Below are positions 6,671-64,000 of a DNA stretch of 64,000 nucleotides, one piece after another. This DNA comes from Aestuariivita sp. (GTDB taxonomy: Bacteria; Pseudomonadota; Alphaproteobacteria; Rhodobacterales; Rhodobacteraceae). Location of the stretch: the NCBI GenBank assembly GCA_018401465.1, contig JAGYKE010000004.1:1643857-1707856 (forward strand), read 5' to 3'. Numbering within the stretch: the first letter of the stretch is position 1; every line of letters begins with the position of its first letter. Below the pieces are notes generated by a model that made no database searches, was not told the DNA's origin, and saw nothing but the letters and a program-made list of their open reading frames with translations. The position numbers were made by a program, and so were the translations under genes.

Positions 6671-7330
6671 TCAGCTTCGCGCGCAGCCGCGCATCGCGTC
6701 CCCGAAGGTGCGTTTCAGAGCCACGTCGAGATCGTCCATCGTCACCGGCAGGCCCAGATCGACAAGGCTCGTCACGCCGTAGTCGGTGATCCCGCAGGGC
6801 ACGATGCCGTCGAAATGGGACAGATCCGGTTCCACGTTGATCGAGATCCCGTGAAAGCTGACCCAGCGGCGCAGGCGGATGCCGATGGCGGCGATCTTGT
6901 CCTCGGCCATGCGTCCATCGGGCAGGCGCGGCTTGTCGGGCCGGTCGATCCAGACGCCGACGCGGCCCGGGCGGATGTGTCCGGTCAGGCCGAACTCCCC
7001 CAGCGCGGCGATGACCCAAGTCTCGAGATCGCGCACGAAGCAGCGCACGTCACGCCCGCGCCGGTCGAGGTCAAGCATCACATAGACCACACGCTGACCG
7101 GGGCCATGATAGGTGTATTGCCCGCCGCGCTGCGCCTCGAAGACGGGAAAGCGGTCGGGATCGACCAGATCGGCGGGTTTCGCGCTGGTGCCCGCGGTGT
7201 AGAGGGGGGGGTGTTCCAGCAGCCAGATCGCTTCGTCTGCGCGGCCCGCGCGGATATCGGCGACCCGCGCTTCCATTATCGCGAGCGCGGTGTCATAGGC
7301 TGTCAGCCCGTCGGACTGAATCCATTCCAT
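6671..7330 (-). CDS. lipB: Octanoyl-ACP:protein octanoyltransferase
   Basis: LipB moves octanoate from acyl carrier protein to lipoyl domains, the first step of de novo lipoate synthesis. The 219-residue length is typical. The substrate-site motif [16 protein letters not shown] lies near residue 70; the catalytic lysine is in [12 protein letters not shown] and the catalytic cysteine in DGIVPCGI near residue 178. It converges on yciB, with 8 bases between stops. lipA is not in the window. Confidence 0.97.
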
Positions 7331-52788: not shown

Positions 52789-54366
52789 TTACCTGAACAG
52801 GTAATCCGGCAGCCCTGTCGCCAGAACCGGGAAGGCCGCGATCATCACCAGCGCCAGAAGCTGCAGCGCGATGAACGGAATGACGCCTGAATAGATGTCC
52901 TGCGTCCGCACCGACGCCGGCGCCACTCCGCGCAGGAAGAACAGCGCGAAGCCGAAAGGCGGCGTCAGGAAAGAGGTCTGCAGGTTCACCGCGATCATCA
53001 CGCCCAGCCAGACGGGATCGGCCCCCATCAAGATCAGCGCGGGGCCGACGATGGGCACGAGGATGAAGATGATCTCGAGGAAATCGAGGAAGAAGCCCAT
53101 CACGAACATCAGCAGCATCACGAAGATCATCGCGCCGGTCAGCCCGCCGGGCAGGCTTTCGAGCAGGTGATGCACCGTCTCTTCCCCGCCCAGACCCCGG
53201 AAGGTCAGCGAGAAGAGGCTCGCCCCGATCAGGATGGCGAAGATCATGCCGGTGATCCGGGCGGTGTTCTCGATCACCGGGGTCAGAACCTGGGTGCGGA
53301 AGACATAGACCAGAGACAGGCCGATGCTGAAGGCGAGGACCGCGACCAGCCCGAACGAGACATAGAGCATCGCCTGTTCCGACGCATTGAAGTCCTGCCG
53401 CTGGATCAGCAGGTTGAACCCCAGACCGTTGATCACCATCAGCGCGACCGCCGCGCCCACGCCCGACAGGATGACCCATGTCCGGTCGGGCCGCGCCCGG
53501 ATGCCGGCGAGGATCGTCGCGCCGACCGCGCCGACGCCCGCCGCCTCGGTCGGCGTCGCGATGCCCGCAAGGATCGAACCCAGCACCGCCACGATCAGCC
53601 CCGCGGGCGCCAGAAGCCCGTTCGCGAAAAGCCGCCAGCGTTCGGCGCGGGTCAGCTGCTCCTTCGGATCGGCGCGCACCGCGGGCGCGGAAGACGGCTG
53701 CAGCCAGGCCAGAACGACGATGTAGATGGCGTAGAACAGCACAAGCATCAGCCCGGGTACGAGCGATCCGGCGAAAAGATCGCCGACGCCCACCGACTTG
53801 CCCGCGAAGTTGCCGGAACTAAGGTTCGCCTGCTGGTTGGCATAGGTCAGGATGTCGCCGAGAAAGACCAGCACGATCGACGGCGGGATGACCTGACCCA
53901 GCGTGCCCGAGGCGCAGATCGTGCCGGTGGCAAGCTTCGGGTCGTAGCCATGCCGCAGCATCACCGGCAGCGCGATCAGGCCCATGGTGACGACGGTTGC
54001 GCCCACGATCCCGGTCGAGGCGGCCATGAGCATCCCCACCATCACGACCGACAGGGCGAGGCCGCCCCGCAATTCGCGGAACAGCTTGGTCATGGTGACC
54101 AGCAGGTCTTCCGCCACCTTGGAGCGTTCGAGCATCAGACCCATGTAGATGAAGAGCGGCGCCGCGATCAGCACCTCGTTCGACATGATGCCGAAGATGC
54201 GCTGGGGCAGGAAATTCAGCTGGCGGAACTGGAAGATGCCGAACCAGTCGCCGATGATCGCGAAGGCCAGCGCCGTGCCCGCCAGCGTGAAGGCCACCGG
54301 AAAGCCCAGCAGCATCAGCACGATGGCCGTCAGGAACAGGCCGATCTCAAGGTATTCGTTGATCAT
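52789..54366 (-). CDS. TRAP transporter large permease (DctM), long form, system 4
   Basis: 525 residues, about 90 longer than ordinary DctM. Standard blocks are present (MAASTGIVGATVVTMGLIAL, ASGTLGQVIPPSIVLVFLGD, GIATPTEAAGVGAVGATILA, LQTSFLTPPFGFALFFLRGV). The extra length is a central insert with two more membrane helices (about 300-370: TWVILSGVGAAVALMVINGL, MLYVSFGLVAVLAFSIGLSL). It starts within the dctQ stop (ATGA). Confidence 0.95.
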   Translation of the reverse strand: MINEYLEIGLFLTAIVLMLLGFPVAFTLAGTALAFAIIGDWFGIFQFRQLNFLPQRIFGIMSNEVLIAAPLFIYMGLMLERSKVAEDLLVTMTKLFRELRGGLALSVVMVGMLMAASTGIVGATVVTMGLIALPVMLRHGYDPKLATGTICASGTLGQVIPPSIVLVFLGDILTYANQQANLSSGNFAGKSVGVGDLFAGSLVPGLMLVLFYAIYIVVLAWLQPSSAPAVRADPKEQLTRAERWRLFANGLLAPAGLIVAVLGSILAGIATPTEAAGVGAVGATILAGIRARPDRTWVILSGVGAAVALMVINGLGFNLLIQRQDFNASEQAMLYVSFGLVAVLAFSIGLSLVYVFRTQVLTPVIENTARITGMIFAILIGASLFSLTFRGLGGEETVHHLLESLPGGLTGAMIFVMLLMFVMGFFLDFLEIIFILVPIVGPALILMGADPVWLGVMIAVNLQTSFLTPPFGFALFFLRGVAPASVRTQDIYSGVIPFIALQLLALVMIAAFPVLATGLPDYLFR

Positions 54367-54914
54367 GCCTTGGTTCCCGGCACGCCCAGCGGATCGGCGT
54401 CGGGATCATGGCCCAGGATCAGCGTGCGCAGGTTGCGCAGCGCGAAGGACAGGGCCTGGATCCCCAGCGTCACCACGAAGACGAGGATGAAGGTCTTGAG
54501 AAGATAGATATAGGGCAGGCCGGCCACTTCGGCCGAGGTCTCGCCCAGCCGCCAGGACCGCTGCACATAGGGCAGGCCTGTCGTCCACACGACCCAGAGG
54601 ATCGGTGCAAGAAGGAAGATCGTGCCCAGAAGGTCCGTCAGTGCCCGTATCCGTGGCGACCGGCGGCCATAGAAGATGTCGATGCGCACATGTTCGTTGC
54701 GCTGCAGCGTCCAGGCGGCGGTCGAGGTCAGCACGATCGCGAAGGCATAAAGCACGGTCTCGATCAGCGCGATGTTTGAATAGCCGTACATGTAGCGCGC
54801 CACCACGTTGGCGAAGGTCATCAGCACCATGTAGAGCACAAGCCACGACACCGCGCGGCCGAAGAGCTGCGTGATCCCGTCGAGGACGGCGATGGAAAGA
54901 TCTAGAAGACGCAA
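54363..54914 (-). CDS. TRAP transporter small permease (DctQ), system 4
   Basis: 183 residues, four membrane segments; NVVARYMYGYSNIALIETVL and QRNEHVRIDIFYGRRSPRI are the DctQ landmarks. It begins with TTG at 54914, preceded by GCGGAGTC at good spacing. Cotranscribed with dctM. Confidence 0.9.
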   Translation of the reverse strand: MRLLDLSIAVLDGITQLFGRAVSWLVLYMVLMTFANVVARYMYGYSNIALIETVLYAFAIVLTSTAAWTLQRNEHVRIDIFYGRRSPRIRALTDLLGTIFLLAPILWVVWTTGLPYVQRSWRLGETSAEVAGLPYIYLLKTFILVFVVTLGIQALSFALRNLRTLILGHDPDADPLGVPGTKA

Positions 54915-54936
54915 GGCGGGACTCCGCAGATCGAAA

Positions 54937-54961
54937 TCCGGCCGGGATGGTCCCGGCCGGA
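54937..54961 (-). promoter_or_regulatory. Strong stem-loop between dctP and dctQ, system 4
   Basis: 11-bp perfect stem TCCGGCCGGGA/TCCCGGCCGGA with a 3-base loop; on the minus strand only TTT follows. Same place and build as in system 3. Confidence 0.65.
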
Positions 54962-54980
54962 TCGGTCTTGTCAGACGGGC

Positions 54981-56093
54981 TTATGCGCCGTTTGCAAAGG
55001 CGAGACGACGCGCGTTGTACATCGGGAAATCGACGAGCACCGAATACTGCAGGGCTTCGTCACGATAGGCCTTCCAGCTGGCGTAGATTTCCTTGGCGTA
55101 GTCGTCGATGCCGGCCAGTTCTGCAACGACCTCCTGCGAGGTCTTCGCCAGTGCGATCACCACGTCATCGGGATAGTTGCGCACGTCGACATTGTGCTCC
55201 TTGCGCAGGGTCTCCATCGCCTTAGCGTTGTAGTAGGGCCATTCGCCGATGTTGATCGAGTTGGCCGACTGCGCCGCGTGCTGCATGATCTTCTGTTCAT
55301 GCGGCGTGAGCGAATCAAACAGATCGGCGTTGATCCCGATTTCGCCCGCGCTGTTCACTTCCTGCCAGCCCGGGGTGTAGTAGTACTTGGTGTGCTGCTG
55401 GAAGCCGTTGGCGCTGTCGAGCCATGCGCAGCACAGTTCGGTCGCGTCGATCGCGCCCGACTGCAGCGAGGTGAAGATTTCCTGCGGCGGGATCATCACG
55501 GCGCTCGCGCCGACGCGGCGCATCACTTCGCCCGCGATGCCCGAGCTGCGCATCTTCACGCCCTGGAAGTCTTCCAGGCTGTTGATCTCCTTGTTGAACC
55601 AGCCCGCCATCTGCGTGCCGGTATGGCCGCAGGTGAAGGCAACCATGTTGAAGAGATCGCGATACGCCTTGTGCTGAAGCTCCTGACCGCCGCCGTGATA
55701 CATCCACGCGCAGTGCTCCATCGCGTTCAGCCCGAACGGCACGAGGCCGAAGAAGGTGACCGCCTGCCACTTGCTGGCAAGGAACATGGGCGAAGAGTGG
55801 TAGCAGTCCGCGGTGCCCTGGCCGACGGCGTCGAAGACCTCGAACGCGCCGACAAGCTCACCCGCGGCGTTCACCTTGATGGTGATGCTGCCGTCGGTCA
55901 GTTCCTCGACATATTTTGCGAAGTTGTAGGCGATGGAGGCCAGGCCGGGAAAGTTGTGGGGCCAGGCCATGACCATGGTCAGCTCGCGCTTGCCTTGCGA
56001 GATGGCCGGAGTGGCCAGACCGGCGGCAAAGGCTGCCGCCCCTGCGCCTGCGACGGCCGATTGCTTGAAAAACTTGCGACGGTTCAACGTCAT
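54981..56093 (-). CDS. TRAP transporter substrate-binding protein (DctP), system 4, Tat-exported
   Basis: 370 residues. Tat leader LNRRKFFKQSAVAGAGAAAF. Same subgroup as system 3: VMAWPHNFPGLASIAYNFAK, YHGGGQELQHKAYRDLFNMV, FQGVKMRSSGIAGEVMRRVG (ligand loop) and LQSGAIDATELCCAWLDSAN. CAGGGAGGAGACG precedes the ATG at 56093. It is divergent from the aldolase gene across the motif at 56221. Confidence 0.95.
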   Translation of the reverse strand: MTLNRRKFFKQSAVAGAGAAAFAAGLATPAISQGKRELTMVMAWPHNFPGLASIAYNFAKYVEELTDGSITIKVNAAGELVGAFEVFDAVGQGTADCYHSSPMFLASKWQAVTFFGLVPFGLNAMEHCAWMYHGGGQELQHKAYRDLFNMVAFTCGHTGTQMAGWFNKEINSLEDFQGVKMRSSGIAGEVMRRVGASAVMIPPQEIFTSLQSGAIDATELCCAWLDSANGFQQHTKYYYTPGWQEVNSAGEIGINADLFDSLTPHEQKIMQHAAQSANSINIGEWPYYNAKAMETLRKEHNVDVRNYPDDVVIALAKTSQEVVAELAGIDDYAKEIYASWKAYRDEALQYSVLVDFPMYNARRLAFANGA

Positions 56094-56220: not shown

Positions 56221-56235
56221 AAACAAACACCTGTT
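56221..56235. promoter_or_regulatory. Operator-like motif between dctP and the aldolase gene
   Basis: AAACAAACACCTGTT. It matches 14 of 15 bases of the motif at 59683-59697. It lies 128 bases upstream of dctP and 102 bases upstream of the aldolase. Confidence 0.55.
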
Positions 56236-56336
56236 CAAATTGACGAAAAACAACTAGCCTCGCAAGCATTATTCGCAGCCCCGTGCGATCGAACATCGAA
56301 ACCGGGCTGCCATGCAAGACAGGGGAGGGAGGGCCC

Positions 56337-57110
56337 ATGACAGCCGCCACAGATTTCCGCCGCGCCAAGCCCGCGCATATGAGCGACGAGGAATGGGCCA
56401 CGCGTGTCGATCTGGCCGCCTTCTACCGGCTGGTCGCGCATTTCGGGATGGATGACCTCATCTACAACCACATCTCGGCGCGCGTCCCGGGCCCGGAAGA
56501 GCATTTCCTGCTGAATCCCTTCGGCCTACTCTATGAAGAGGTGACCGCCTCGAACCTCGTGAAGGTCGATCTCGACGGCACCATCGTCGAAGACACGCCC
56601 TACCGCATCAACCCGGCGGGATTCGTCATCCATTCCTGCGTGCACCGGGAACGGCACGATCTTCTGTGCGTCGCGCATACGCACACGACGGCGGGCGTGG
56701 GTGTGTCCGCGCAGGATGGGGGCTTGCTGCCGATCAGCCAGACGGGGCTCCTCTACAAGGACCTGATCGGCTATCACGATTACGAGGGCCTCGCGCTCAA
56801 CCTCGAGGAACAGAAGCGGCTTCTGGCCGATCTGGGGACGGACAAGCAGCTTCTCATCTTGCGCAATCACGGGCTTCTGGCCTGCGGGCGCACGATCCCC
56901 GAGGCGTTCATCATGCTGTTCTATCTCGAACAGGCCTGCCGCATTCAGGTCGCGGCGCAGGCGGGCGGCAAGCTGGTCCTGCCGCCGCAATCGGTGCAGG
57001 ATCTGGCGCACAAGCAGGCGATGGGCGGCTTCGGCGCGGGCCTGGGCGAGATGGAATTCACCGCGCTCAAGCGCAGGCTCGACCGGATGGGCGCCGATTA
57101 CGCGACCTGA
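56337..57110 (+). CDS. Class II aldolase/adducin family protein
   Basis: 257 residues. AraD-like fold with metal histidines in VAHTHTTAGVGVS (near residue 115) and in ILRNHGLLACGRTI (near 185). Family members are fuculose/ribulose-phosphate epimerases, aldolases or decarboxylases; many in catabolic clusters have unknown substrates. The ATG at 56337 follows AGGGGAGGGAGGG. Its end overlaps the end of the opposite-strand reductase gene by 13 bases. Confidence 0.93.
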   Translation: MTAATDFRRAKPAHMSDEEWATRVDLAAFYRLVAHFGMDDLIYNHISARVPGPEEHFLLNPFGLLYEEVTASNLVKVDLDGTIVEDTPYRINPAGFVIHSCVHRERHDLLCVAHTHTTAGVGVSAQDGGLLPISQTGLLYKDLIGYHDYEGLALNLEEQKRLLADLGTDKQLLILRNHGLLACGRTIPEAFIMLFYLEQACRIQVAAQAGGKLVLPPQSVQDLAHKQAMGGFGAGLGEMEFTALKRRLDRMGADYAT

Positions 57111-58033
57111 CCGGCCGCGTTCGGCTTCAAGAGAGCGTAGCCCATGGCGTGCAACGGCACGGGCACGCCCAGCCTTGCCGCTTCGCGCACCAGCCAACCG
57201 ATGGTCGCTTCCAGCTCCAGCGGTCGCCCCCGTTCCAGATCGTCGAGCATCGAGGCCCGCGTGCGCCGGTCGGCGGTGTGCAGGCTGAAATCGAGATTGC
57301 GCTGCACAAGGCCCGGGGGCAGGGCGACGCCGCGCGCGCGGGCGACGGCGGCTACCTCCTCCATGCCCTGCGCATAGAGGTTGCGCGCCTCCTCCACCTC
57401 GATCCAGCCGCCCAGCGGCAGCCGCGTCAGCGCCGAGACCATGTGATACGGCGCCAGCATCACGAACTTGGCCCAGATCTCGCCCATCGGGTCATCCATC
57501 AGGGACATGTCGAGCCCCGCCTTGACCCCCAACGCGGCGAAGCCCCATGCGGCCCGCGGCACGGCGCCGGGTGCTGCGGGGCCGAAGACGAACTTGCGCA
57601 CCGCGCCGGTGTGGCGGACGTGGCCCGGTTCCGGCACGCTGGCGGGCACATATGTGACACCGGCCAGAACGCGCCCGGCGCCGAACCGCTCCACAAGGTG
57701 TTCGACCCCGTACAGCCCGTTCTGGAAGCTCAGCACCTGCGTATCGGGGCCGATCATCGGCGCCATGGCGTCCGCCGCCGCGACGCTGTCCTGTCCCTTG
57801 ACCGTGAACAGGCAGATATCGACCGGCCCGATGCTGCGCGCGTCGTCGCTCACCTGCGCGGGCGCGACGGTCACGCTGCCTGCGTCGTCGGTCAGCCGCA
57901 GACCCTGCGCCGTGATGGCCTGCAACGTCGCCCCCCGCGCCAGCAGGTGCAGCGACCCGCCCGCACGCGCCAGGTGCACGGCGAGAAACCCGCCGATGGC
58001 GCCCGCGCCCATGACGCCGATGCGCAGGCTCAT
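57098..58033 (-). CDS. 2-dehydropantoate 2-reductase-like protein (ApbA/PanE family)
   Basis: 311 residues. NADPH site IGVMGAGAIGGFLAVHLARA at residue 5; ICLFTVKGQDSVAAADAM with the catalytic-region Lys near 80; FQNGLYGVEHL; and GEIWAKFVMLAPYHMVSALT with the second Lys near 190. The family reduces ketopantoate; many paralogues in catabolic clusters reduce other 2-keto acids. The ATG at 58033 overlaps the acyl-CoA synthetase stop (ATGA). Confidence 0.92.
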   Translation of the reverse strand: MSLRIGVMGAGAIGGFLAVHLARAGGSLHLLARGATLQAITAQGLRLTDDAGSVTVAPAQVSDDARSIGPVDICLFTVKGQDSVAAADAMAPMIGPDTQVLSFQNGLYGVEHLVERFGAGRVLAGVTYVPASVPEPGHVRHTGAVRKFVFGPAAPGAVPRAAWGFAALGVKAGLDMSLMDDPMGEIWAKFVMLAPYHMVSALTRLPLGGWIEVEEARNLYAQGMEEVAAVARARGVALPPGLVQRNLDFSLHTADRRTRASMLDDLERGRPLELEATIGWLVREAARLGVPVPLHAMGYALLKPNAAGQVA

Positions 58034-59592
58034 TCGCTTGCCGCCCAATAGGGATCGCGCAGAAGCCGCTTGAGCACCTTGCCCAGCGCGTTGCGCGGGA
58101 ACTCGGCCCGCGTCTCGACCGCGATCAGCCGCTGCGTCTTGGCGAGCCGTTCGTTCGCCCAGTCGCGCAGCGCGTCGCAGTCGATCGCGACGCCTTCGCG
58201 CGGGATCACCAGCGCAAGGCAGCTTTCGCCCCATTTGTCATGCGGCACGCCGATCACGGTCACGTCGAAGACATCCGGGTGACCGCCCACGATGGCCTCC
58301 ACATCCGTCGGGAAGACGTTGAAGCCGCCCGAGATGATCATGTCCTTCTTGCGGTCGATGATGTGCAGGAAGCCGTCTTCGTCCAGTTTCCCGATATCCC
58401 CCGACCGAAGGAAGGTGCGCCCGCGCTCATCCCGCCAGATCAGCTCCGCCGTCGCCTCGGGGCGCTTGTAGTATTCCGTCATGATCCCCGCGCCATATCC
58501 CGCGATCTCGCCCGGAACGTCGGGCGGGCACTCGTTGCCCTCCTCGTCAAGGATGCGCAGCTCGAACCCCAGAACGGGTGTGCCGACAGACGCGAACTTC
58601 TCGGCATGCTGGTGCGGTTTCAGCATCGTCGCGAAGCCTTCGGAATAGCCGTAAAGCTCGTAAAGACCGGGCGAGATACGCTCGATGATCTGGCGCTTGG
58701 TGTCGCGGCGGAGCGACGATCCGGCGGACAGCACGGTCTTCAGGCTTGAGAGGTCCGCGCCTTCCAGCGCGGGATGGGCCAGCACCATCTGGTATTGTGC
58801 GGGCACCATGAAGGTATGGGTGATCTTTTCGCGCGCGACGGTGGCAAGGAATTCGCCCACGTCGAAGGATTTCATCGCCACAAGCGTGCCGCCCGCGAAC
58901 AGGCAGGGCAGCATCATCAACCATGTCCCGTTGGAATAAAGCGCCGTCGTCGTCAGCGCGCGCGACGACGATCCGAAGCCCATTTCGATCGCGTTGGAAA
59001 AGGCCCAGTGCAGCCGCGCGCGATGCGTCTGCACGATCCCCTTGGGCAGGCCGGTGGTGCCCGAGGAATAGATGATGTTGAAGGCGTCCGTCAGGTCGTA
59101 GCGCACGTTGGGCAGCGTCGCGGGCTGGCCCGCCATGAAATCGGCAAGCGTGATCCAGCCGTCGCCCGAAAACCCCTGCGCGATCCAGCCGCCCGGCGGA
59201 ATCGCCCCCAGATCGGCGCGGATCGCATTCACTGTATCGGCGAATTCGGCCGACACGAAGGCGCGCGTCGCGTCGCAATCGCCCATCAGCCCGCGCAGCT
59301 GATCCGCCGTCAGCAGCCCCGATAGCGGCACCACCACGCCGCCCGCCCGCACGACGGCGAACAGGCATTCCAGCATTTCCGCCGAATTGCCCATGAGAAG
59401 CGCGACTTTCTCACCCTTCTGCAACCCGTCGGCCACCAGTGCATTGGCGATCCGGCTGATATTGGCGTCGAAATCGCCCCATGTGCGCCGCGTGTCGCCG
59501 CAGATCACCGCCTCCTTGCGCGGAAAGAACCGGGCATGGGTGGCAAGCAGGTCAGGCAGATAGACCTGCGGGTCGTCGATACGGTCGGACAT
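58030..59592 (-). CDS. AMP-dependent acyl-CoA synthetase (first)
   Basis: 520 residues. ATP-binding IIYSSGTTGLPKGIVQTHRA near residue 175, ELYGYSEGFATMLKP (A5), DIGKLDEDGFLHIIDRKKDM (A7/A8 hinge), and the catalytic Lys in RNALGKVLKRLLRD at the end. It activates a carboxylic acid via acyl-AMP to its CoA ester. Divergent from the P450 gene across the motif at 59683. Confidence 0.95.
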   Translation of the reverse strand: MSDRIDDPQVYLPDLLATHARFFPRKEAVICGDTRRTWGDFDANISRIANALVADGLQKGEKVALLMGNSAEMLECLFAVVRAGGVVVPLSGLLTADQLRGLMGDCDATRAFVSAEFADTVNAIRADLGAIPPGGWIAQGFSGDGWITLADFMAGQPATLPNVRYDLTDAFNIIYSSGTTGLPKGIVQTHRARLHWAFSNAIEMGFGSSSRALTTTALYSNGTWLMMLPCLFAGGTLVAMKSFDVGEFLATVAREKITHTFMVPAQYQMVLAHPALEGADLSSLKTVLSAGSSLRRDTKRQIIERISPGLYELYGYSEGFATMLKPHQHAEKFASVGTPVLGFELRILDEEGNECPPDVPGEIAGYGAGIMTEYYKRPEATAELIWRDERGRTFLRSGDIGKLDEDGFLHIIDRKKDMIISGGFNVFPTDVEAIVGGHPDVFDVTVIGVPHDKWGESCLALVIPREGVAIDCDALRDWANERLAKTQRLIAVETRAEFPRNALGKVLKRLLRDPYWAASE

Positions 59593-59682
59593 CCGTAACT
59601 CCCTGTTTTTCTTGTCTTCGGGCCCCGGCTTGCACGGACGGCACGCAGAGACTTGTGCGCGAAACGCGGCTGCCCTAATACT

Positions 59683-59699
59683 AAACAAACAACTGTTTG
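59683..59699. promoter_or_regulatory. Operator-like palindrome between the acyl-CoA synthetase and P450 genes
   Basis: AAACAAACAACTGTT (59683-59697), containing the perfect palindrome CAAACAACTGTTTG (59686-59699), which fits a CAAAC-N4-GTTTG layout like that described for the fatty-acid regulator PsrA. It lies 91 bases from the synthetase start and 45 bases from the P450 start. Confidence 0.6.
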
Positions 59700-59743
59700 G
59701 TGACAACGCCGATCGTCACCCCGAAAAACGGGAGCTGAACGAG

Positions 59744-61013: not shown

Positions 61014-62195
61014 ATGACCGCCGAGATCGTGATCAGTGCCGGAACGCGGACGCCGCTGGGCAATTACGGCGGCTCGCTCAAGGGGGTGGAGCTGACCGAC
61101 ATGGCGGGTCATGCCGCGCGCGCGTGCGTGGCGAAATCGGGCATCGCGCCCGACAAGATCGACCACATGGTCTTCACGACCACCGTGCCCACCGACCGCG
61201 ACACGCTGTTCGCTGCGCGCGTGGTCGGCGTGAAATCGGGCATCCCGGAAGAAGCGGGTGCCCTACATGTCGTGCGCGCCTGCGCTTCGGGCCTGCAGGC
61301 GATCCTGTCAGCGGGACAGCAGGTCGAAACGGGTCATTCGCGGCTCGCGCTTGCCGGGGGCGCCGAATGCTATTCCCGCGCGCCGCACGCGGTGGCGTCG
61401 GCCCGCTGGGGCGTCGGGCGCGGCCCGATGCAGCTGGAAGACATGCTCGACTGGGCCTATCGCTGCCCGTTCAGCCAGGACTACATGGGCGAGACGGCCG
61501 AGAACCTGGCCGAGGACTTCCAGTACGACCGCGACGCCATGGACGACTGGGCCGAGATGAGCCAGGCCCGCGCCATCGCTGCGATCGACAACGGCTTCCT
61601 TGCCCGCCAGATCACGCCGATCGACGTGCCCGACGGCCGGACCACGCGCGCCTTCACCACCGACGAATCGGTGCGCCGGGACGCGACGCGCGAGAAACTT
61701 GCCCGCCTGCGCCCCGCCTTCCGCGAGGGCGGCAAGGTCACCGCCGGCAACTCCTCGGGCGTCACCGACGGGGCGGGTTTCGTCATCGTGGGCGACCGCG
61801 CGGCGATGGAAGCGGCAGGCGGCACGCCCGAGGCGCGGTTGGTCGACTGGCACGTCGTGGGCGTGCCCCCGCGCATCATGGGCCACGGGCCGGTGCCCGC
61901 GATACAGGGCCTTCTCGACAAACGCGGGCTGAAGGTGACGGACATCGACTATTTCGAGATCAACGAGGCCTTCGCGGTCGTCAACCTGCACGCCGAACGC
62001 CATCTCGGCATCCCGCGCGATCTGCACAATCTTTACGGCGGCGGCATCTCGGTCGGGCATCCGCCGGGACTGACCGGGGTGCGGATGTGCATGACGGCGA
62101 TCGAACATCTCAAGGAAACCGGCGGACGCCGCGCGGTCCTGTCCATGTGCCTTGGCGCGGGGCAGGGCATGGCCATGCTGATCGAGCGGGTGTGA
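61014..62195 (+). CDS. Thiolase (acetyl-CoA acyltransferase)
   Basis: 393 residues. Nucleophile Cys in HVVRACASGLQAILSAGQQV near residue 89, active-site His in EINEAFAVVNLHAERHLG near 325, GGISVGHPPGLTG near 348, and Cys in VLSMCLGAGQGMAML near 380. The GHPP replaces the usual GHPxGASG, so substrate pocket differences are likely. It lies 28 bases after the P450 and 1 base before the second ligase. Confidence 0.95.
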   Translation: MTAEIVISAGTRTPLGNYGGSLKGVELTDMAGHAARACVAKSGIAPDKIDHMVFTTTVPTDRDTLFAARVVGVKSGIPEEAGALHVVRACASGLQAILSAGQQVETGHSRLALAGGAECYSRAPHAVASARWGVGRGPMQLEDMLDWAYRCPFSQDYMGETAENLAEDFQYDRDAMDDWAEMSQARAIAAIDNGFLARQITPIDVPDGRTTRAFTTDESVRRDATREKLARLRPAFREGGKVTAGNSSGVTDGAGFVIVGDRAAMEAAGGTPEARLVDWHVVGVPPRIMGHGPVPAIQGLLDKRGLKVTDIDYFEINEAFAVVNLHAERHLGIPRDLHNLYGGGISVGHPPGLTGVRMCMTAIEHLKETGGRRAVLSMCLGAGQGMAMLIERV

Positions 62196-62196
62196 C

Positions 62197-63870
62197 ATGG
62201 CGCGTCCGCTGCCCGACCTGATCGACGGTGCCCCGGCGCGGGCCGCGGCCGAAGCGCTTGCCGCAGGCAGCGCGACCGTCTTCGACGCTTTCGCCGTCGC
62301 TGCCGTGATGCAGCCCGACCTGCCTTTCCTCTGTATCCCCGCGCGCGAAGAGCGCGATTATCACCCCGAGGGTTTCGAGATCACCTATGGCGCGGCGCTG
62401 GCCGAGGTCATGGCCCGCCGCGACCGGCTGGAGGCCGCGGGATACCGCGCGGGCCACCGTGTCGCGCTGATGCTGGACAACCGGCCCGAACATGTCTTCT
62501 CGCAGCTGGCGCTTTATGCGCTGGGCGTGACGCAGGTGCCGGTGAACCCCGACTACCTCGACCACGAACTGACCTACCTGCTTGAGCATTCCGAAGCCGA
62601 TCTGGCCCTGGGCCTGCCCCACAACGTCGACCGGCTGAGCCGTGTGGCCGATGCGCTGGGCGTGCCCGCCATGCTGGAAGCCACCCCCGGCGATCTTCCC
62701 GCGCCGAAGGGCCCCCCGCGCGCGGCCGCCACCGGGCGGCAGGCCGAGGCGGCGCTGATCTACACCTCGGGCACGACGGGGCGCCCCAAGGGCTGCGTGA
62801 TCGACCATGAATACCATTTTGCGGTGGGCCTGTCCTATGCCCGCATCGGGGGGCGGCTGGCGCTTCGGAACCGCGCCGACCGCGTCTTCGTACCGCTGCC
62901 GGTCTTCCATGTGAACGCAGGCATCAACACGCTGACCGCGCTGATCCTGACCGGCAACTGCCTGATCCTGCCCGACCGCTTCCACCCCGCGACCTGGTGG
63001 CGCGACATCAAAGCGACTCGGGCGACGGCTATGCATTATCTGGGGATCATCCCGCCCATCTTGCTGAAACGCGCGCCCTGCGAAGACGAAACCGCGCATT
63101 CCCTGCGCTTCGGCCTTGGCGCGGGGCTCGACCCGCAGATCCATCAGGAATTCGAGGCGCGCTTCGGCGTGCCCATGGTCGAGGTCTGGGGCATGTCCGA
63201 AACCGGCCGGTTCCTCGGCGATTGTCATGAGCCCCGCCGCATCCACACCCGCGCCTTCGGCAAGCCCAGCGAAGACCTCGACGCCCGCGTGGTGGACGAA
63301 GACGGCAACCCCGTGCCCCCCGGCACCGAAGGCGAACTGGTCGTGCGCGCGCACGGGAAAGACGCCCGCCACGGGTTCTTCCGCGAATACCTCAAGAACC
63401 CCGACGCCACCGCCGAGGCTTGGCGCAGCGGCTGGTTCCACACCGGCGACGTGGTCGTGCAGGAACCGGACGGGATGCTGCACTTCGTCGAACGGCGCAA
63501 GAACATCATCCGCCGCTCGGGCGAGAACATCTCGGCCGCCGAGGTGGAAAACGCGCTCATCGGCCACCCGGGCGTCGAGGCGGTCGCCGTGATCGGTGTC
63601 ACCGACGAGATGCGCGACGAGGAAGTGATGGCCTGCGTCATCCCCATGGCGGGCACCCCGCGCGACGAGGCCAACGCGCGGTCGATCTTCGATCACGGGC
63701 GCGATCTGGTCGCCTATTACAAGCTGCCCGGCTGGATCGCTTTCGTCGATGACCTGCCGCGCACCGGCACGCAGAAGGTGCGCAAGGGGCTGATCTTTCC
63801 GGGTCTCGACGACCCGCGCCAAGCGCCGGGCGTCGTCGATCTGCGTGCACTCAAGAAACGGGGGGCCTGA
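62197..63870 (+). CDS. AMP-dependent acyl-CoA synthetase (second)
   Basis: 557 residues. IYTSGTTGRPKGCVIDHEYH near 188, EVWGMSETGRFLGDCHEPRR near 330, FHTGDVVVQEPDGMLHFVER near 418, and the catalytic Lys in PRTGTQKVRKGLIF near the end. The pattern is close to crotonobetaine/carnitine-CoA ligase-like and long-chain members. Only 1 base separates it from the thiolase, so both are translated from one message. Confidence 0.94.
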   Translation: MARPLPDLIDGAPARAAAEALAAGSATVFDAFAVAAVMQPDLPFLCIPAREERDYHPEGFEITYGAALAEVMARRDRLEAAGYRAGHRVALMLDNRPEHVFSQLALYALGVTQVPVNPDYLDHELTYLLEHSEADLALGLPHNVDRLSRVADALGVPAMLEATPGDLPAPKGPPRAAATGRQAEAALIYTSGTTGRPKGCVIDHEYHFAVGLSYARIGGRLALRNRADRVFVPLPVFHVNAGINTLTALILTGNCLILPDRFHPATWWRDIKATRATAMHYLGIIPPILLKRAPCEDETAHSLRFGLGAGLDPQIHQEFEARFGVPMVEVWGMSETGRFLGDCHEPRRIHTRAFGKPSEDLDARVVDEDGNPVPPGTEGELVVRAHGKDARHGFFREYLKNPDATAEAWRSGWFHTGDVVVQEPDGMLHFVERRKNIIRRSGENISAAEVENALIGHPGVEAVAVIGVTDEMRDEEVMACVIPMAGTPRDEANARSIFDHGRDLVAYYKLPGWIAFVDDLPRTGTQKVRKGLIFPGLDDPRQAPGVVDLRALKKRGA

Positions 63871-63871
63871 C

Positions 63872-64000
63872 ATGAAACGCGCCATCTTCCGCCGCCACGG
63901 CGACCCTGCGGAAGTGATTGAGGTGATCCATGAACCCGATCCGGTTCCCGGCCCCGGGCAGGTGCGCGTGCGCCTGAAGGTGATGACGATCAACCCCGCC
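63872..64000 (+). CDS. MDR-family alcohol dehydrogenase/quinone oxidoreductase (3' end cut)
   Basis: The first 43 residues, MKRAIFRRHGDPAEVIEV..., then PGPGQVRVRLKVMTINPA. This is the N-terminal GroES-like part of a zinc-type or quinone oxidoreductase. It begins 2 bases after the ligase and continues past the window. Confidence 0.85.
   Translation, partial: MKRAIFRRHGDPAEVIEVIHEPDPVPGPGQVRVRLKVMTINPA

Follow-up and report, generated by a model that had tools for sequence, protein, structure and literature searches.

We begin by considering the TetR proteins described beside catabolic gene clusters. KstR2 of mycobacteria and Rhodococcus is bench-tested, has the operator AnCAAGnnCTTGnT and is tied to sterol genes (PMC3068626). 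FadP is described as a TetR regulator of acyl catabolism in betaproteobacteria (PMC5343134), and EdcR (PMC8700777) and BkaR (PMC3920632) as TetR regulators whose clusters and palindromes are different ones. Here we examine a stretch of 64,000 nucleotides from Aestuariivita sp. (the window), in which genes for tripartite ATP-independent periplasmic (TRAP) import, an aldolase, acyl-CoA ligases, a cytochrome P450 and a thiolase lie around a repeated, operator-like element. Among the titles and abstract openings of openly licensed papers, none describes this cluster or operator; the print record beyond these may differ. From sequence comparison we hold, with good confidence, that the two sites in the window, S1 and S2, and a third site past its end, S3, serve as operators for a single TetR_C_24 repressor, whose gene closes the cluster. 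The features are collected in Table 1.

The repeat was pointed out by a first-pass annotation and a re-reading of the sequence agrees with it. The 15-base readings AAACAAACACCTGTT at 56221-56235 and AAACAAACAACTGTT at 59683-59697 differ by one mismatch, share the form AAACAAACA[C/A]CTGTT and lie each in one divergent promoter. S1 is flanked by the gene of the TRAP binding protein (DctP) leftward and the class II aldolase gene rightward, and S2 by the AMP-ligase gene (ligase A) leftward and the P450 gene rightward. The motif CAAAC-N4-GTTTG is present in S2, at 59686-59699, also as annotated. The repeat looks like a shared operator. The 17-mer AAACAAACAMCTGTTYR has matches without mismatch at S1 and S2 only in the 3.74-Mb genome. 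At up to three mismatches the 15-mer has two matches in the window, both exact, where a mean of 0.39 is expected; two or more such matches occur in 9 of 100 shuffled windows. The bare palindrome CAAACN4GTTTG behaves differently from the 17-mer in the genome-wide scan that the annotation had proposed. It occurs exactly at 3 places (control pattern, 1); when one mismatch is tolerated the count is 29, against 33 for the control. On these counts the bare palindrome alone is weak evidence. With up to two mismatches it occurs 9 times in the window, below the shuffle level of 14.15. Only S2 matches the core palindrome exactly; S1 and S3 each fit it well in one half and differ from it by 2 mismatches.

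The annotation had also proposed to look for a TetR gene preceded by the motif, and such a gene is found about 3.1 kb past the window, with S3 upstream of it. The gene is divergent from an enoyl-CoA hydratase gene, and S3 lies in between. Its product matches TetR_N at 61.5 bits (curated cut-off 24) and TetR_C_24 at 59.4 bits (cut-off 26.4). The genome has 18 matches to TetR_N, 17 of them over the cut-off, and three TetR_C_24 proteins; by eye, the recognition helices of the other two differ from that of the cluster TetR. A KstR2-like layout is found here, with S1, S2 and S3 each in a divergent intergenic region close to the regulator gene and one of them at the regulator itself, and this multi-operator layout recurs in relatives. 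At S3 (L023:5827-5844), as at L045:5384-5401, L046:1081-1098 and L047:3817-3834, two registers 4 bp apart can be read, which could be two dimers or merely an extended half-site. Another TetR_C_24 gene of the genome (G000:C3, 1727995) has another near-perfect palindrome, CTGAACAAGTGTTCAG, just upstream (L011, about 1427-1443), probably its own operator.

The next question is "does the operator accompany related regulators?" A scan with an alignment of the cluster TetR and six relatives gave at least 552 loci, and the best 80 of these are used here, near-identical loci all counted, each searched over an interval that begins 300 bp upstream of the TetR match and reaches 30 bp into it. The palindrome stands near the TetR start exactly in 23 of the 80 (random windows, 0.1) and with up to one mismatch in 37 (random windows of the same loci, 0.6). 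When helix classes are assigned by a simple pattern, it accompanies 35 of 61 regulators of the YYHF/YYYF class, none of the 11 of the YHHI/YAHI class and 2 of 8 others. From the sites of 34 relatives with up to one mismatch, and with the cluster loci L045, L046, L047 and L051 dropped, 24 distinct sites were combined into a matrix with the symmetric consensus AAAACAAACGATCGTTTGTTTT. Trained on sites from outside the cluster, this matrix gives S2 the top rank in the window (27.4) and S1 the second (12.4); the next non-overlapping position scores 6.9. S3 tops the L023 stretch in two overlapping registers (15.2 and 14.5). In random DNA from an order-1 Markov model of the window, the score of S1 arises 3.9 times and that of S3 1.9 times per 3.74 Mb, and that of S2 was never reached in 3.84 Mb. 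Because the scores of S1 and S3 arise by chance a few times per genome, these two sites lean also on position and conservation. At up to two mismatches, a genome-wide search with the extended consensus finds S2 alone and no further member (control pattern, 2 per strand). An exact strong site, CAAACGGACGTTTG (score 21.8), lies at L001:1501-1514, which is G000:C1:296924-296937, and the gene just downstream reads by inspection like an SPFH/flotillin-type membrane protein. Among the stretches of the same genome that were scored, only this site otherwise comes near the site scores of the cluster relatives. A more distant TetR relative (38%; L078) has three exact palindromes, at 7040, 7067 and 10675, around acyl-CoA genes, which suggests a separate regulon of like kind.

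We turn our attention to the cluster in other genomes. A search for the P450 at E<=1e-100 found it in 7 of 394 family genomes, the window's genome included. The 20 kb around the P450 in the six other genomes, together with L045, L046, L047, L051 and the window, give 11 cluster loci with a pairwise DNA identity of about 72-80% where alignable; L167 aligned to none. Of the 11 loci, 10 have a site in the 250 bp that precede the P450, 37-132 bp from the P450 start and with scores of 23.1-31.7. The cluster TetR is present in ten genomes (the window's and nine others), and all ten have this P450-upstream site. In L167 the P450 is present with a best upstream score of 7.1, that is, no site, and the cluster TetR was not found at E<=1e-10 in that genome (G229), which is 91% complete. 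Upstream of the TetR gene, a site stands in nine of the ten loci with that TetR. Eight come from a scripted count and the ninth is L165, where the protein match crossed the site at 2687 and the genome-search match ends before it. All 6 loci with a TRAP DctP orthologue have a site upstream of it; the scores are 12.4-26.6, and the largest distance is the 355 bp of L166. Other TRAP binding proteins with upstream sites occur in L168 and in L045, where the protein was named by inspection. Where the cluster is rearranged, the sites still stand in front of the same genes, and the one TetR-less locus seen has none. In G195 (locus L165) the order of the cluster is the same and all three sites are kept. 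S1 lies there inside 26 identical bases, in an alignment with 52% identity elsewhere, and 2 of 20,000 column shuffles reach such a run; at S3 the longest identical run is 12 bases (195 of 20,000 shuffles). Taken alone, the comparison with G195 gives strong evidence for S1 and moderate evidence for S3, but that for S2 is weak. What the sequences show is the sites themselves, how they are conserved and that they go with the cluster TetR.

Beyond this, we infer binding, repression, autoregulation and a CoA ligand. A TetR dimer would sit on the extended palindrome AnCAAACnnnnGTTTGnT. At S2, the repressor would be placed between the -35 and the -10 of ligase A, with the P450 start about 50 bp downstream, and both directions would be blocked. 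The promoter-like pair of ligase A, TTGTCA-N17-TAGTAT, has 9 of 12 consensus bases (shuffle mean 0.0). At S1, TRAP import and the aldolase would be blocked likewise, and at S3 the enoyl-CoA hydratase and the regulator itself, giving autoregulation. Blocking of RNA polymerase at each divergent promoter would be the simplest reading. Release by an acyl-CoA from the pathway's own ligases would then turn on import, activation, oxidation, hydration and thiolysis together. The fold predicted for the L045 orthologue (mean pLDDT 89; 67% identical to the cluster TetR over the match) has PfmR, DarR, KstR2, AibR, FadR and FasR as neighbours, and the entries hold isovaleryl-CoA (AibR), stearoyl-CoA (FadR) and C20-CoA (FasR). 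Because these entries hold CoA esters, the inducer is likely to be an acyl-CoA of the pathway; DarR, a c-di-AMP binder, is in the same list. On the sequence evidence, the regulon is well supported as a putative autoregulated local switch for import, CoA ligation, P450 oxidation, hydration and thiolysis, and such a switch is of an ordinary bacterial type.

The first-pass annotation had likened the layout of S2 to that reported for PsrA, the fatty-acid-responsive TetR regulator; on this reading a PsrA encoded elsewhere would bind the sites. S2 does fit the published PsrA motif C/GAAACN2-4GTTTG/C, and CAAAC-N4-GTTTG is indeed a reported PsrA layout (PMC13104628, PMC10304680). However, no protein of the genome passes the cut-off of the PsrA model searched (TranRepPrsAVib); the best of them reaches 34.3 of 300 bits, in the N-terminal part only, and the cluster TetR, scored separately, 34.6. 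This model may be narrow and a very diverged PsrA could escape it. The palindrome shows no genome-wide excess (29 against 33), and the cluster has a different TetR, whose relatives carry the same operator. These TetR_C_24 relatives carry CAAAC-N4-GTTTG, and therefore the motif is no PsrA signature; the layout is common to PsrA and the TetR_C_24 branch of the cluster TetR. Against 24 TetR relatives, the PsrA model gives one match at 1e-10 or better. We regard PsrA as a very improbable binder, set aside here on the model match and on the lack of a palindrome excess, and it is probably not the regulator of S1 and S2. The part of the claim that stands is the shared operator and the single regulon of TRAP import, aldolase, ligase, P450 and thiolase, for which the matrix and the conservation argue.

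It is also conceivable, though unlikely, that the cluster TetR reads the sites but activates, or that at each divergent promoter it controls just one of the two directions. Some TetR proteins are described as activators, PsrA at rpoS for example (PMC13104628), KstR2 is reported to repress in one direction at one of its three sites (PMC3068626), and the lack of a recognised promoter pair at S1 and S3 would fit such a role. On the other hand, the position of S2 across the promoter spacer of ligase A and the distances of the P450 sites from the start are what a blocking repressor would lead one to expect. That another TetR of the same genome reads the sites, or none does, the match being chance or a promoter element, strikes us as extremely improbable. 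The many TetR proteins of the genome, three with TetR_C_24, and the chance frequency of the S1 and S3 scores leave room for it; the differing recognition helices of the other two TetR_C_24 proteins and the fate of the sites in the rearranged and the TetR-less loci argue against it. Chance origin was set aside on the upstream palindromes of the relatives, the independent matrix ranks and the conservation across the cluster loci. Repression by the one local TetR_C_24 protein has its own difficulties. Without a site at up to one mismatch are 43 of the 80 TetR relatives; S1 and S3 are weak relative to the consensus, and no promoter pair was recognised at either. Upstream of the TetR gene of L164 there is no site; the second site of that locus is 3' of TetR and precedes ligase A by 414 bp. 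For ligase A, only 4 of 8 loci show a site within 250 bp. The longest identical run between S2 and G195 is 10 bases, which is not unusual (3,443 of 20,000 shuffles), and the strong site at C1:296924 is without a known pathway link. All of these weigh against it.

The window end falls inside the cluster. Leftward from S2 run ligase A and a ketopantoate-reductase-like gene, and rightward the P450, thiolase 1 and ligase B. The predicted regulon is larger than was claimed, since it takes in the ketopantoate-reductase-like gene, ligase B, a quinone-oxidoreductase-like gene, thiolase 2, the enoyl-CoA hydratase and the TetR gene. Among the solved relatives of the TRAP protein, one has ketoacid-binding in its name and another sorbitol/mannitol; the matches of the P450 and of ligase B are too general to point to a substrate, and the extra genes in the loci of relatives did not decide it. 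About 8 kb beyond the TetR gene, an open frame at L023:14569-16029 has long GGNAGGNT-type and charged repeats.

Table 1. Genes and sites of the cluster; coordinates without a prefix are positions in the window.
Feature	Coordinates	Strand	Remark
TRAP transporter genes, whole run	52789..56093	-	
TRAP large membrane subunit	52789-54366	-	named by inspection
TRAP small subunit	54363-54914	-	named by inspection
TRAP DctP	54981 to about 56093	-	
S1, operator-like, AAACAAACACCTGTTCA	56221..56237	+	between TRAP and aldolase genes
class II aldolase-like gene	56337..57110	+	
ketopantoate-reductase-like gene (ApbA)	57098..58033	-	
acyl-CoA ligase A (AMP-binding)	58030..59592	-	
promoter-like pair of ligase A	59678..59706	-	S2 across spacer
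S2, operator-like, AAACAAACAACTGTTTG	59683..59699	+	between ligase A and P450 genes
cytochrome P450	59744..60985	+	
thiolase 1	61014..62195	+	
acyl-CoA ligase B (AMP-binding)	62197..63870	+	
cluster continuation beyond window end	from 63871..64000	+	
quinone-oxidoreductase-like gene	L023:2729-3721		past window; named by inspection
thiolase 2	L023:3711-4973		past window
enoyl-CoA hydratase	L023:4970-5773	leftward	past window
S3, third site, CAAACAAACATTCGCTAG / TTCAAACAAACATTCGCTAG	L023:5827-5844		two overlapping registers
TetR gene (matched part)	G000:C3:1710924-1711577		TetR_N + TetR_C_24

With the local TetR_C_24 repressor as the reading, a repeat found by eye becomes a regulon that can be tested, since it now has three sites, a consensus for the operator and a candidate gene for the regulator. 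The shared switch outlines one pathway, of TRAP uptake, two CoA ligases, a P450, two thiolases and a hydratase, and this outline narrows the search for the substrate. It also gives a caution, that CAAAC-N4-GTTTG alone is no proof of PsrA. We give an even chance to a wider possibility, a largely undescribed TetR_C_24 branch of acyl-CoA sensors that would use a PsrA-like operator with proteins other than PsrA, each copy over a local catabolic island; here the island would be TRAP-ligase-P450-thiolase, for a carboxylic acid. The loci of this branch that were seen are alpha-, beta- and gammaproteobacterial, and FadP may be related to some of the betaproteobacterial ones.

Compared with the known systems, KstR2 is the closest analogue in architecture, as judged from its published description (PMC3068626). 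There, too, a local regulator stands beside a CoA-dependent catabolic cluster, and three palindromes occupy divergent intergenic regions close to the gene of the regulator, whose own promoter is one of these; KstR2 is also among the sequence and fold matches of the cluster TetR. The operators differ by eye, since AnCAAGnnCTTGnT has another half-site and a shorter spacing than the consensus here. PsrA of Pseudomonas is alike in operator layout, in being a TetR protein and in acyl metabolism (PMC13104628), whereas the cluster TetR falls far below the PsrA model and serves a local cluster in place of the wide network described for PsrA. The likeness to AibR, FadR (Bacillus), FasR and PfmR is one of fold, with CoA esters in the entries of the first three, at 19-29% identity. 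CymR, the cumate repressor, is alike in operator letters: its P2-CuO operator also starts with AACAAACA, and TGTTTG stands on its opposite side, but its half-sites are spaced further apart (PMC1654148).

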